Source of the DNA: Circinella minor
Lineage: Eukaryota; Mucoromycota; Mucoromycetes; Mucorales; Lichtheimiaceae
NCBI GenBank assembly: GCA_016758965.1
Contig: JAEPRB010000020.1
Location: 117,191-181,190, forward strand
DNA length: 64,000 bases
Reading direction: 5' to 3'
Of this stretch, positions 5,787 through 46,799 are shown one piece after another. Position numbers and translations under genes: made by a program. Each line of letters opens with the position of its first letter. The first letter of the stretch is position 1. The notes under the pieces were generated by a model. The model saw only the letters and a list, made by a program, of their open reading frames with translations, did not search any database and had not been told where the DNA came from.

Positions 5787-8700
5787 ATGTTATCACCATG
5801 CATTACTCCGCCTAGCTCCGCGTCCCTTCAAGAGATCGTCCATTCTCAAACAGATTTATTATTAGACTGTCTTGTTGCTGTTTATGCTGATCTTTTCCCA
5901 CAAAACAATGATTCGTCACCATCGTCACAATGTACGTCACTTTTTATTATATCTTTACGCAGATTATCTATTAAAACTAGTAACCATTATTATTATTATT
6001 ATAGATGAATCACTTTATCAACATATAAAACAATTACGTATTAATAAGAACGATTTTGAACACATACGACCTCTTGCACGCGGTCAATTTGCTCAAGTAT
6101 CCATTGTTCGACATAAAAAAAATGGTCAAGTTTATGCCATGAAACAACTTCATAAAGCTCATGCTTTATCACATCACGAACGAACTTTCTGTATGGAAGA
6201 ACGAAATGTATTGGCAGTACAACATCAGCAACATGATAATGATGGTGATAATGATAAGCAAGAATCATTATCATCATGGATACCTAAACTTCATTGGGCG
6301 TTTCAAGACGATGATTATTTATATTTAGTTATGGAATATGCAGGTGGCGGCGATTTATTCAGTGTTTTACTACGACAGAACAATGAATGTTTGACAGAAG
6401 AAGAAGCACGTTTTTATATTGCAGAAACCATAATCGCTGTGGATAGTTTACATCAAATGGGATATATTCATCGGGATATTAAACCTCAAAATATTTTGAT
6501 TGATCATACAGGACACGTCAAAATAGCCGATTTTGGTTCTTGTATATCAATTAATAATGCAAAGGTAATTATATTTATAAGAATAAAATGAAAATACGTA
6601 CAAAATAACAAATGGAAAGAATATGTAAGTGCTTATATGTGGCTATATAATAGAAATCGCCACCGACAGTAGCTGTTGGAACATGTGATTATGTTGCTCC
6701 TGAAATATTACAAGCACAAGAGGGAAATTTGACGTATGGTACTGAAGTAGATTGGTGGTCTGTTGGCATTGTATTATATGAAGCCCTTCAAGTGTTTCCA
6801 CCGTTTTATAGTAATGAGAGCCAAAAAGAAACCTACTTAAATATCTTGTTTCATGAGGTAATCTAAGCATATGATTTTAAATTACAGAGTTAGTTATAAT
6901 TATTAATTCCCATGTTTAATGTTATGTAGTCTAAGCTTAAGTTTAATGAAGATTTCCCAATATCGGATGAATGCAAAGATTTGATTTGCAAGTAATTTCC
7001 TCTTTTATTTTTTATTTATTTTATACAAATATTTACAAACAAAAAACAACATTATCAAACAACAGCAATAATAATGTTGCTCAAACAAAAATATACATAT
7101 ATTTTTTATTTTTCTGATTTTGTTGTTGTATACAGATTACTATCGAAACGAGAAACTCGATTAGGTAAAAATGGCGTTCAAGAAATTCAACAACATCCAT
7201 TTTTCAAAGGGATCGATTGGAAAAGTTTACGTAAATGTAAGAAATAATGATTAAATAACTGACATGGTGAAGCATCTTTGTTTTTTTATTAGTTAAAATA
7301 ATAATAATATTACTACTTTTTTTTTATATTTTGAATTATAGCAAAACCACCATTTCAGCCAGTTTTGTGTTCCCCAGATGATACATCCAATTTTTCGGAT
7401 GCAAATGAAAGTAATGAAGAGCAAGAACCAAATGAACACTATACTTGGTCATCCTCTACATCTGCTTTGCATCAACAACGTTATATATCATTTATTGGAT
7501 TTTCATTTTCTGGAATAAATAATATCATCCATCCTACTAGCACTACTATTACACAAACATCTTTATCACACCGACAACAGCAACAAAACGAAATACTTTT
7601 GCAACAATTACGTGACGAAAATAAACGATTACTTGAACAAATTCGATCCAAAGCAACTGAAGATGAAAAACACACAAAAAAAACGGTCATTGTTGACGAT
7701 TTACACGAACGCATTGATGTCTTGACAAAAGAAAATACTCGATTAAAATCTACCTATGATGATACCCAACGAGAATTACAAAATGAAACAAATCAAAGAC
7801 TAAATGGTGTTCAAGAGCTTACTCAAGCTCAACAACACATTGAACTCTTGATAAAAATATCCAAACAAGATAAAGAGGATATAGAAAAGTTATCAAAACA
7901 GCTCAATGATGCACAACAACGAATCCAACGCTATGTTGAAATAGATCGAGGACAGAAAAAATCAAATCAAGCCAACGATGAACAACAACGGCAACAACTA
8001 AAAATTCAAGATAATCGATTACAAAAATACGAAAAAAAACTTGAACAACTACGAAATCAAATGATGGAATTACAAAACGAACATGAAATTGAATTGGATG
8101 AAATGATTGAACATTTGAAAGATGAGTTTAATCGAGTACGCGCAGAAGAAACTGTTCAATTACAAAATAAATATCAACAAGAACTGGAAGAATTTCGCGA
8201 TCAATTACAAATTCAGTACAAGAATGAATATGAACTTTTGAGTCAACAATTGAAAAATGATTATAACGACAAAATCAAGGGAAAAAAACATGATAACAAC
8301 GGTAGCGATAGAGACGAGAACGACAGCTTATTAAAACAGCAACAACACCATGAAAAGCTGAGGATGCTACAGCAACAGAAAAAGTATGAAGAAGAAATTC
8401 AGCAGTTGCGTAACGAAAAGCAACAAGAGCTTGACTTTTTACATGTTGAAAATGCTCGGTTGCAAAAAGAAAAACAGGAACTACAACATCAACAAGAAAG
8501 AAATTCAGCAGCTTTACAAAAAGAAATCGAACAGCATTTATACGAAGCACAGTTGCTAAGGGAAGAAATTGTTCAACTAAAAGAACATCACCATAGCAAT
8601 AGAAGCTACAACAACGACAATACGAGTGGTATCCATGACAACAATAATGAAATAGTACCATCGATTGACAAAAGTATTAATATTTCCAATTACAAAAACA

Positions 8701-44135: not shown

Positions 44136-44825
44136 TTAAATAATTGCAGGAGCAGCACAAGTAAATTTGTTCTGCAAATGATGGGTTACAAGAATTCGAC
44201 AGTCCAAAGTTGGCAAGTCGATGGGTATACTAGTACTACCGCTACTAGATGAAAGTGGAGGTGTAGTAGGAGGAGAAATTGGTATGGACGTTGGCAATAA
44301 CGGCGCCTGCGCATGATTTGTTACTGATGCTAATGATAATGATGAGGATGAGGTTGATAATGATGTTGATGCAGATAATGGTGGAGAAGGTGGTGTACAA
44401 ACCATTAATTGAGGTTGTTCTTCTTTTAATGGTTGAGAATGGATAGTGATAGGTTCTTCTTGTTCTTGTTGTAATTCATCATCTTCTTCCATATTACTGA
44501 TAGCTAATGGTGAATGATGATGTGGAGGGTAATGTTGTTGATGTTGTTGTTGTGGAGGATCATCATAGCCTACTTCATCATCTTCTGCGGCTAATACTCG
44601 GCGATTTGTACGAGCTTGACGTTTATTAAGTACAGCATCTGCCTTGTTCATTGTATTTTGTAATAAAACTCGTTCACGAATGTGATAACTTGGTCGACGA
44701 CGTTTTTCGTCTCGATCCAATTTTTTACATGCAAGAGAATGGGCTTTGGAAGCAACTTGTCTTGGAGACATGTTACGAGTAGAAGTGAAGATAGTGTTAG
44801 GAGCGTTATTTCGTTTGGACCACAT
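44136..44825 (-). CDS. Hypothetical Ser/Pro/Gln-rich protein
   Basis: A 229-residue single-exon frame. The N-terminal ~80 residues are basic and look folded: SPRQVASKAHSLACKKLDRD, then RRRPSYHIRERVLLQNTMNK, ADAVLNKRQARTNRRVL. After this comes disordered sequence with Gln/His runs, an acidic MEEDDELQQEQEE patch and long Ser/Thr/Pro stretches typical of fungal regulatory proteins, ending FTCAAPAII. No domain is recognised. The basic helix followed by low-complexity acidic and proline-rich regions would suit a nuclear regulator, which is only inference. Confidence 0.55.
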   Translation of the reverse strand: MWSKRNNAPNTIFTSTRNMSPRQVASKAHSLACKKLDRDEKRRRPSYHIRERVLLQNTMNKADAVLNKRQARTNRRVLAAEDDEVGYDDPPQQQHQQHYPPHHHSPLAISNMEEDDELQQEQEEPITIHSQPLKEEQPQLMVCTPPSPPLSASTSLSTSSSSLSLASVTNHAQAPLLPTSIPISPPTTPPLSSSSGSTSIPIDLPTLDCRILVTHHLQNKFTCAAPAII

Positions 44826-45711
44826 TTTTTGTTTATTTGTTTATAAAAGTAGAAGAGCGTTGTTATTGTTTTTTAATGTTGTTATCCGTATAATCATCGA
44901 ATGGCTTTGAAAAGCAAAAAAAAAAAAAAGTTAATTAAATTGGAGAAGGGTGGAAGTATGTTAAATCAAAAGTTGATCTGAATTAATGCTTCCTATTTAT
45001 ACTAATTTTTTTTTTTTTTTTTTGAAAATAGGTTTCTTTGAAGGAATAAATTCCCTTCGCGGAACTGACCGGAACCTTTGCATGTGCATCCCTCGGTCGG
45101 AACGAAAAAGAAACAAAAAAGGTAAGAAGAGGGGGTTTCTGCGTGTGGAGAAGAAGTCTCGATCCAAAAATGGCCGCTGAAACTCATTTAAGACTCCGTA
45201 ATTCATAATGACATATATTATGAGTTTTTTTTTTTGATCTTGAATTTTTTTTGATATGACACAATAGTTGTAATATTTAGCTCACCGGGGTTATTATCGC
45301 TCATGAAAAAAAATCTTATTGTTTAAGATAATATTGAGATAATAATAGTAATAATTTGAAAAATACTAATAGTAAATAAGTAAAACAATGCAATGGATAA
45401 TTATTTTATTGGTGTAAGTAAAAGAAGTAATTTAGAAAGTTGAAAATAGAATCCTCCCCCTCTCCATAATATTTTTTTTATTTGGAAATAAAAAATATTC
45501 TCCAATATTAGCTACATGGTCCGTTCCCCGTTCCATGGAAGCTTGTATCGGGTAACCGCAGCAAAACCGCGGAGGGACAAAAATAGCCAAACCATGTTTT
45601 TGGCCGCGGAAGAAACAAGTGGAAACATCTGATTGGAAGATAAAATTATTGAAATATAGTGATTCCCCAGCTTCGCTGGTTTTTTTTTTCTTTTCTTCTT
45701 TATTCGACGAT
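44826..45711. promoter_or_regulatory. Divergent spacer upstream of the HAC1-type gene
   Basis: This separates a minus-strand hypothetical gene from the bZIP gene. The part at 45515-45675 is unusually GC-rich for the window, with two CCGCGG sites (about 45568 and 45604) and a compact hairpin CCAGC-TTC-GCTGG (45667-45679) likely in the mRNA leader. These are candidates for stress-response promoter or leader elements. Confidence 0.45.
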
Positions 45712-45728
45712 TTCTCTCCATTGGGTGG
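45712..45728 (+). promoter_or_regulatory. Leader segment complementary to the HAC1-type intron
   Basis: TTCTCTCCATTGGGTGG lies 48-64 nt upstream of the ATG. It is the exact reverse complement of 46525-46541 inside the predicted Ire1 intron (17 bp, extendable by one G-U pair). In budding yeast HAC1 a comparable leader-intron duplex blocks translation of the unspliced mRNA. Confidence 0.75.
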
Positions 45729-45775
45729 TGGAAAATTTTAGAAGATTTTATTAAGCGTTTATTGTTTTAAAAAAA

Positions 45776-46799
45776 ATGATCTCAAACCAACAACAACAAA
45801 CATTGACAACTGATAATGTTAATTTGGAAACGCTCTTGTCGTCCTTCTCGAGTGATTTCGGGGTTAATCCCATGGTGACGATTACTTCCCCTAATGGGAA
45901 CAACGTTAGCAATAGCAACTGTAGCTATAGCAACAACAGCAACAACAACAACAACAACAACAGCAACAACAACAATAAAAGTTCAAAGCGAACTGTCGTG
46001 CAGACTAAAAAATCTCGACTTTCCTTGGATGACAAAGACCAAAAGACAAAAGAAAGGTTTGTTGTTGTTTTATTTTATATATTATTTTTTAATTATACAA
46101 AGTTGATTAAAATAACTAATTATTATTATTATTATTATAGAATCTTGCGGAACAGAGCAGCAGCTCAAGAATCAAGGGATAAAAAGCGTCGTTATGTCGC
46201 CGACTTGGAAACAAAAAATAAACAATTACAAGAAGAAAATGAACGGGTGTCGAAACGTGCCAAGAATTTGGAAATTCAAAATGAAATTTTGAGTGCTCAA
46301 CTCCTTGTCTTGAGTCAACGTCTTGCAAAAATGACGGATTCTTCACAACTTATGAATGATGGCTTTTGCGATTCAGCACGGATCGCGAAGAGGATATACG
46401 TTACGTTGATCACAATCTAAAAAATTGATCTCGTTTATATAATGTATATATAATTCTGTTTCTTTTTTTTTTTTTCATCATCATCATTCAATCGTCGTTT
46501 CAAAACCCAAACCCACCCACCCACCCACCCAATGGAGAGAAGAAGGGATGAAAGAAAAACGATTATATATATATATATATATCAAAGGATTTTTTTATTC
46601 GTATCGATAATTAGTATGGAAACGTATCTGTTCTTTCCCTGCAGCGGAGGCTGTCAAACATGAGCCGTTTGAACCACGTCAACTTTTGCCTTCACCAATG
46701 TTATCATCAGTGTCTTCAAATGATGATGTTCAGTTAGATGATTTATTTTTTGATTGGGAAGGTCTTCAACATATCCCAAGTCCACCAGAACAACAATAA
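45776..46799 (+). CDS. HAC1: HAC1/XBP1-type bZIP factor with predicted Ire1-spliced intron
   Basis: This is the likely transcription factor of the unfolded protein response. Exon 1 (45776-46056) is Asn/Ser-rich with a basic KRTVVQTKKSRLSLDDKDQK end. A normal GT-AG intron follows. Exon 2 (46141 on) has the basic region RILRNRAAAQESRDKKRRYV and a leucine zipper (ADLETKNKQLQEENERV and on), closest in style to Hac1/HacA/XBP1. Unspliced, the frame ends at 46420 (186 residues). Cutting at the two stem-loops (after 46376 and after 46641) joins the frame to AEAVKHEPFEPRQLLPSPM and an acidic DDLFFDWEGLQHIPSPPEQQ tail ending at 46799, giving 224 residues. No phase-compatible GT donor lies between the end of the zipper and the 46420 stop. 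Confidence 0.88.
46364..46390 (+). promoter_or_regulatory. Predicted 5' Ire1 stem-loop
   Basis: Ten consecutive pairs (46364-46373 with 46381-46390, three of them G-U) close a seven-base loop CAGCACG. Cleavage after the third loop base (G46376) fits the Ire1 rule C-N-G/C. Loop position 6 is C, where the animal/yeast consensus has G. Confidence 0.72.
46377..46641 (+). other. Predicted 265-nt unconventional (Ire1/tRNA-ligase) intron
   Basis: It lacks GT at the 5' end and is bounded by the two stem-loops. It contains the stop of the unspliced frame, a poly-T tract, an (ACCC)n run, the 17-nt complement of the leader (46525-46541) and a (TA)n run (46563-46582). The length is close to the 252-nt budding-yeast HAC1 intron and about ten times longer than the 20-26-nt forms known for filamentous ascomycetes and animals. 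Confidence 0.75.
46525..46541 (+). promoter_or_regulatory. Intron segment complementary to the HAC1-type leader
   Basis: CCACCCAATGGAGAGAA pairs perfectly with 45712-45728. The (ACCC)n repeat just upstream could allow limited slippage of the left end of the duplex. Confidence 0.75.
46634..46650 (+). promoter_or_regulatory. Predicted 3' Ire1 stem-loop
   Basis: Five pairs (46634-46638 with 46646-46650, two G-U) close the loop CTGCAGC, identical to the 3' loop of animal XBP1. Cleavage after G46641 gives the reading-frame join described for the gene. Confidence 0.78.

Follow-up and report, generated by a model that had tools for sequence, protein, structure and literature searches.

A HAC1-type gene of Circinella minor with a predicted 265-nt Ire1-type intron and a putative leader-intron translation lock

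We analysed a window of 64,000 nucleotides (nt) of the Mucorales fungus Circinella minor (assembly GCA_016758965.1, contig JAEPRB010000020.1, positions 117,191 to 181,190 of the forward strand; all coordinates below count from the first letter of the window). It carries a basic leucine zipper (bZIP) gene at 45776-46799, with its ATG at 45776 and its stop codon at 46797-46799. This is very likely the Mucorales HAC1, coding for the master transcription factor of the unfolded protein response, with an intron of the type spliced by Ire1. A segment of its leader is perfectly complementary to the middle of the 265-nt intron, and the two probably form a working lock that would block translation in unstressed cells and be released by Ire1 splicing. 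An initial annotation, drawn from the letters alone, had proposed that a HAC1/XBP1-type gene outside Saccharomycotina has a long Ire1-type intron to which its leader is complementary. Its coordinates were all confirmed and the proposal is strengthened by the presence of IRE1 in the genome and by relatives that share the junction and, in part, the intron motif.

According to the mechanism that we favour, the HAC1 messenger RNA (mRNA) would be made with the 265-nt intron. In the absence of stress, positions -64 to -48 of the leader would pair with the middle of the intron, looping out the coding region, and the helix would keep ribosomes from being recruited near the cap, as happens in S. cerevisiae. 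Upon endoplasmic reticulum (ER) stress IRE1 would cut after CAG (46376) and CTG (46641), a Trl1-type ligase would join the exons, and translation would start once the intron has left, the new acidic C-terminus making the product an active factor. Pairing in vivo, the translational block and the induction of splicing by stress are predictions from sequence.

The leader-intron complement

The perfect 17-nt complement of the initial annotation is confirmed and is a unique pair in the genome. Leader positions 45712-45728 and intron positions 46525-46541 give 17 of 17 pairs, 18 with one G.U, and a predicted energy of -31.5 kcal/mol. In the genome searched (46.6 Mb, 619 contigs) the 17-mer has two exact copies, one in the leader (+) and one in the intron (-) of HAC1; with one or two mismatches it is found at 5 further places, the reversed control also giving 5. 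A dispersed repeat as the source of the complement was ruled out, leader and intron being each single-copy and the 17-mer having no third exact copy. The gene itself is single-copy (its own E value in the genome search is 2.1e-44 versus 5.9e-8 for the next bZIP), and none of its paralogues is close enough to serve as an internal check on the pairing.

The complement exceeds most chance controls. For the sequence matches the leader was defined as 45690-45775. None of 20000 random 265-nt genomic windows matched the leader at 15 or more. Genomic pairs with the same spacing reached 17 in 6 of 20000 cases, none of them with a distinct-3-mer fraction of at least 0.7 (observed value 0.8). The RNAduplex energy of leader and intron, -47.2, was equalled by 0/1500 pairs of the leader with random sequence and by 0/1500 doubly shuffled pairs. 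Two kinds of repeat lie inside the Ire1-type intron: CCCA repeats at 46512-46531, adjoining the pairing segment, and a TA repeat at 46564-46581.

Possible traces of the putative lock in relatives

Scans of viral_contigs and genome_contigs gave no HAC1 DNA of relatives, and the comparison was made with 136 proteins, designated here by P numbers. A motif is said to fit when some codon choice matches it. The initial methionine may correspond to GTG or TTG in some sources, which makes Met-Glu (ME) starts weaker than internal motifs; the L that begins P0074 was read as TTG. The set of open reading frames (ORFs) spanning intron and exon numbers 17 among the matches listed (120 of 160, from a candidate list cut at 8000), P0136 being excluded as it has no intron part.

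The 12-mer of the intron half, CCACCCAATGGA, fits 5/18 of the relatives' sequences that reach into the intron, a count expressed in this way since it cannot be told whether a motif-free ORF extends past the motif position. Four of the fits are among the 17 intron/exon ORFs (P0121, P0124, P0130 and P0132), and none was obtained in 500 rounds of shuffling. The fifth, found 66 nt ahead of PAAE in the Apophysomyces model P0027, is the only one among the 119 other proteins, which included the read-through proteins of Mortierella type and of Endogonales. The five fits are spread over three reading frames, as expected of a conserved nucleotide element and not of a peptide. Eight of the 17 intron/exon ORFs start with ME, as ATGGAR would give, glutamate making up 1.5% elsewhere in those stretches.

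The leader half TTGGGTGGTGG (45721-45731) fits the Umbelopsis-like P0074, which starts LGGG, 24 nt before the usual ATG; no second fit was found in the rest of the 136-protein set. P0074 is probably complementary DNA (cDNA) in origin because it is continuous across a site where the closely similar P0081 has other residues, in which case the leader motif would lie in mRNA.

The complement could also be non-regulatory in a HAC1 that does have a long Ire1-spliced intron, its halves being separate binding sites (the leader ATTGG, for example, as a CCAAT-box promoter element) or the product of chance. We consider this rather unlikely. The match is 17/17 and is repeated exactly nowhere else in 46.6 Mb, the intron core that recurs among relatives is exactly the paired part, and the leader motif of P0074 stands, in a probable cDNA, too near the ATG for a promoter CCAAT box. 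Several observations nevertheless weigh on the other side and against a lock. The initial annotation had proposed folding the full transcript as a check, and the outcome is divided: leader and intron co-fold by themselves with a probability near 1 across the core, but in the whole transcript, with five assumed starts, the helix has a probability of 0.00-0.16, and forcing it costs 0.4-4.1 kcal/mol (three assumed starts). Transcription of 45712 is itself assumed, as is the position of the transcription start relative to ATTGG; a start 3' of 45728 would leave no pairing. The intron is of low complexity and bears repeats, and matches of 17 arise between it and 151 of 20000 random 86-mers; the RNAduplex energy is equalled in 15/1500 random genomic pairs and in 3/1500 pairs of a random leader with the intron. 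In relatives, where the DNA is deduced from peptides, five of the 17 intron/exon ORFs (P0113, P0122, P0125, P0127 and P0129) lack both the motif and an ME start, conservation of the leader comes from one relative, and no single relative is read on both sides. Finally, C. parapsilosis HAC1 has a 626-nt intron, described in a passage that does not mention leader pairing (PMC6222058).

Predicted cleavage hairpins and splice junction

The 5' stem-loop of the initial annotation, 10 pairs enclosing CAGCACG (46374-46380), is found at 46364-46390 with 3 of its pairs being G.U. When it is folded alone it is stable (-12.6 kcal/mol), but C46374 and G46380 are also paired in the model, leaving AGCAC as the loop. 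The hairpin encodes FC.SARI, a motif located outside the bZIP and invariant in 49/49 aligned unspliced-type relatives. Of the 65 homologues this alignment used 49 and omitted P0009, P0010, P0011, P0014, P0024, P0027 and P0034 (joined or differently modelled), the read-through P0049 and P0050, and the distant P0059-P0065. The published Ire1 loop motif is CxG^CxGx, the caret marking the cut here and below (PMC8881652). Ser-Ala-Arg is shared by 65 of the 136 compared proteins and, an arginine following Ser-Ala, position 6 of the 7-nt loop must therefore be C or A throughout that group. Proteins of Mortierella type, Endogonales and Basidiobolus carry Ser-Ala-Ala or Ser-Ala-Val, which leave room for a G at this position.

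The 3' stem-loop around CTGCAGC, also reported in the initial annotation, is present at 46634-46650 but is not the local minimum: an alternative hairpin across the cut, GCAGC 46641-46645 with GCTGT 46650-46654, has -6.9 kcal/mol and beats the -1.4 kcal/mol of the cleavage hairpin. This weak stem and the C found at position 6 of the 5' loop, in place of the G of the published motif, both count against cleavage by Ire1. Of the 18 Mucorales-type sequences tested, 17 fit the 3' hairpin pattern YTTYC-CNGCAGC-GGARG (16/17 intron/exon ORFs plus P0027 of Apophysomyces); the only fits in the 118 other proteins are the two from Endogonales. Two gene models, P0009 of Mucor lusitanicus and P0034 of Hesseltinella, make the exact DSA^AEV join; in the Mortierella-like P0092 the join is SA^AEA. 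Seven relatives aligned to the last exon have LPSP.LS and LDDL..DW.G.Q in common.

An ordinary spliceosomal intron, such as GT-AG 46400-46649, would be another way to join the bZIP to the C-terminal domain, with no role for Ire1. Such joins can be drawn, which also speaks against the Ire1-type intron: 92 are in frame (20 GT-AG, 22 GC-AG and 50 AT-AC), and two GT-AG joins, from a weak-looking donor at 46400 (TAC^GTTACG, TACGTTACG) to acceptors at 46649 or 46664, spare the bZIP and the linker. The gene models P0010, P0011, P0014, P0024, P0027 and P0066 do not join at exactly the hairpin junction. We nonetheless regard a spliceosomal origin as very improbable. Ten of the other 18 GT-AG joins cut within the Pfam bZIP match and 8 delete the linker with the invariant FC.SARI. 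The hairpin junction, readable here only as GC-CT, CA-TG, AC-GC or CG-CA boundaries and never as GT-AG, recurs exactly in two gene models and in P0092. Moreover, sequences that no longer have the spliceosomal intron but keep the Ire1-type one stand beside relatives with both (P0007 with P0054, P0017 with P0055, P0074 with P0081; source types as read here).

Splicing machinery

The Ire1-type intron finds both enzymes in the same genome as HAC1, an IRE1 RNase and an RNA ligase. IRE1 is encoded at one locus, with Pfam matches to the kinase (2.7e-30) and to the RNase (2e-25), the latter with LLRVLRNK and, in the following exon, HHWQDLPE; LRNK and HHWQDLPE are presumably the catalytic residues. Its upstream frame has no Pfam match and shows, by eye, an apparent membrane span. 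The Trl1-type sealing ligase (locus L026, G000:C94:22500-27500) is encoded by a gene that apparently stops after the sealing domain. The genome-wide searches found neither the Trl1 kinase family, whose control matched in one genome, below the cut-off, nor the Trl1 CPD family, for which no control matched. The ligase gene appears to be without healing domains, in agreement with the title of a 2024 study on a 'sealing-only' ligase in Mucorales, reportedly by Ahammed & van Hoof. RtcB was not found in the genome either; its controls matched in 9/14.

Gene architecture and product

Removal of two introns, one of 84 nt (GT-AG) and the predicted 265-nt Ire1-type intron, gives an in-frame product of 224 residues with a Pfam bZIP_1 match (Table 1). 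The bZIP belongs to the HAC1 lineage, with 65 homologues at E<=1e-3, of which the top-scoring named ones are from Mucorales. P0003 of Circinella umbellata has 97% identity across 46% of the query and an identical unspliced tail, RIAKRIYVTLITI. Excision of the 265-nt intron would replace a 13-residue tail by an acidic domain conserved in Mucorales.

The cuts after 46376 and 46641 given in the initial annotation do yield a 265-nt intron and an in-frame acidic C-terminus; the in-frame product of 224 residues requires removal of 46057-46140 as well. This GT-AG intron is our addition to that account. It was predicted via homology (KER^ILRNR) and not from the frame, because its 84 nt are a multiple of 3 and stop-free. 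Residues ahead of ILRNR, at the site of this intron, are unrelated in P0054, P0056 and P0081. Rfam gave no match to a HAC1 intron family and just three matches in all, each under its gathering score.

Table 1. Coordinates of the features of the HAC1 locus in the window.
Feature	Position	Strand	Basis
Putative lock, leader side: TTCTCTCCATTGGGTGG at -64 to -48 relative to the ATG	45712..45728	+	Perfect complement of 46525-46541; the only two exact copies in the genome lie in HAC1
Exon 1, N-terminal region, ending where the bZIP basic region begins	45776..46056	+	ORF, homology
Predicted spliceosomal GT-AG intron, 84 nt	46057..46140	+	KER^ILRNR continuity restored by its removal
Exon 2, coding for the bZIP and the linker as far as the predicted 5' Ire1 cut (GATTCAG^)	46141..46376	+	Pfam bZIP_1, 2e-9
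Putative 5' cleavage hairpin, loop CAG^CACG	46364..46390	+	Local fold -12.6 kcal/mol; encoded FC.SARI invariant
Predicted intron of Ire1 type (265 nt) with a stop codon in frame at 46418-46420	46377..46641	+	Junction logic; single copy; same junction in the gene models of two relatives
Intron half of the putative lock, CCACCCAATGGAGAGAA	46525..46541	+	Perfect complement of the leader; CCACCCAATGGA core recurs in relatives
Putative 3' cleavage hairpin, TTTCC(CTG^CAGC)GGAGG	46634..46650	+	Canonical loop, weak stem; pattern in relatives
Exon 3, acidic C-terminal domain, stop at 46797-46799	46642..46799	+	LPSP.LS...LDDL...DW.G.Q common to 7 aligned relatives

An open frame of 229 residues without Pfam match lies upstream of HAC1 on the minus strand (44136-44825).

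Intron length and evolutionary history

The 61 unspliced tails of Ser-Ala-Arg-type relatives end 9-43 residues past the cut; P0068, P0069, P0071 and P0074 were counted as contiguous because their residues run on, although the automatic sorting had classed them otherwise. P0121 and P0124 have at least 208 and at least 202 nt ahead of the 3' cut, stretches in which no 5' site fits. In 23 proteins of Mortierella type, Endogonales and Calcarisporiella the unspliced frame continues into the acidic exon, the shift being always +2 and never +1. P0103 and P0109, with 8/9 in this frame-shift scan, were excluded as they already read the exon in frame, and the proteins of Basidiobolus, Glomeromycotina, Bifiguratus and chytrids gave no score either way.

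Fitting the unspliced Mortierella-type P0063 to the spliced P0092 yields an intron of 62 nt (57/59 residues), and P0099 one of about 44 nt (54/59 residues). The best lengths in 19 Mortierella-type comparisons are 32-62 nt, all 2 mod 3, with a near-full fit for P0063 and P0099 only; P0106, which has no FCQS, was omitted. Both Endogonales proteins give 107 nt.

Two other motifs were looked at in the 61 unspliced tails. UGUGUAUA / TGTGTATA fits 11 of them, compared with a shuffle mean of 1.6 and a maximum of 5, and is possibly a further conserved intron element. The PUF-like UGUAUAUA, with 4 fits in the retained tail, was rejected as it falls inside the shuffle range (null mean 1.4, maximum 6).

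The initial annotation had proposed that the long-intron form is either ancestral or a separate invention. The evidence leans towards a separate origin because the introns of Mortierella type (about 32-62 nt) and of Endogonales (107 nt) are shorter, read through and without the 12-mer. A long-intron lock derived in Mucorales/Umbelopsidales, independently of yeasts, looks to be the better-supported history. Mucorales and Umbelopsidales group together, and the simplest history would be a lengthening of the intron and a gain of the lock on their side. On balance we incline to the view that the two orders evolved a HAC1 translation lock of their own, with the conserved pair of leader CCATTGGGTGG and intron CCACCCAATGG. 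It would have arisen together with the long intron and a modified 5' loop, CAG^CA(C/A)G, the starting point being shorter read-through introns such as genes of Mortierella type and Endogonales still have, and in Mucorales it would work with a ligase devoid of healing domains.

Comparison with known systems

S. cerevisiae HAC1 has a 252-nt intron and a leader-intron duplex. The gene described here is alike in its predicted twin hairpins of Ire1 type, its long intron with an in-frame stop, its leader complementary to the middle of the intron and the C-terminus that splicing would add. It differs in its distant fungal lineage, its 5' loop CAG^CACG and a ligase gene apparently without healing domains. 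The pairing differs too, with 17 perfect pairs at -64 to -48 and -31.5 kcal/mol here, compared with an 11-bp core at -32 to -22 and about -22 kcal/mol in the yeast (PMC8881652). Long introns with predicted leader pairing are likewise described for HAC1 of Kluyveromyces lactis (297 nt) and Hansenula polymorpha (177 nt), both budding yeasts, unlike the Mucorales gene (PMC6116095, PMC10608004). Cryptococcus HXL1 has an Ire1-spliced bZIP with hairpins at both junctions but a short intron of 56 nt, and no leader complement was seen there according to the passage concerned (PMC6116095).

The Ire1-spliced bZIP genes of filamentous ascomycetes and animals share the hairpins at both junctions and have short introns. 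From protein-level comparison, HAC1 of Mortierella type and Endogonales would belong to the same bZIP family with an acidic C-terminus, P0092 having the SA^AEA style of junction; their introns (about 32-62 nt and 107 nt) would differ in being read through without a stop, and the 12-mer was not found in them.

In the passages concerned, leader-intron association is called unique to the Saccharomyces clade (PMC8881652), pairing is said to be perhaps conserved only in long Saccharomyces introns, citing Hooks & Griffiths-Jones (PMC8002603), and HAC1 is contrasted only with XBP1 and bZIP60 (PMC4891664). No title or abstract opening among the literature matches listed deals with a Mucorales HAC1 intron, Hooks & Griffiths-Jones 2011 and Ahammed & van Hoof 2024 lying outside this comparison.

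The exact elements named here lend themselves to direct testing in non-yeast fungi. If the lock is real, a textbook case of long-range translational control, that of yeast HAC1, would have arisen at least twice, and the Mucorales gene would provide an independent replicate from which to learn what a long HAC1 intron must do and which elements of the lock are indispensable.
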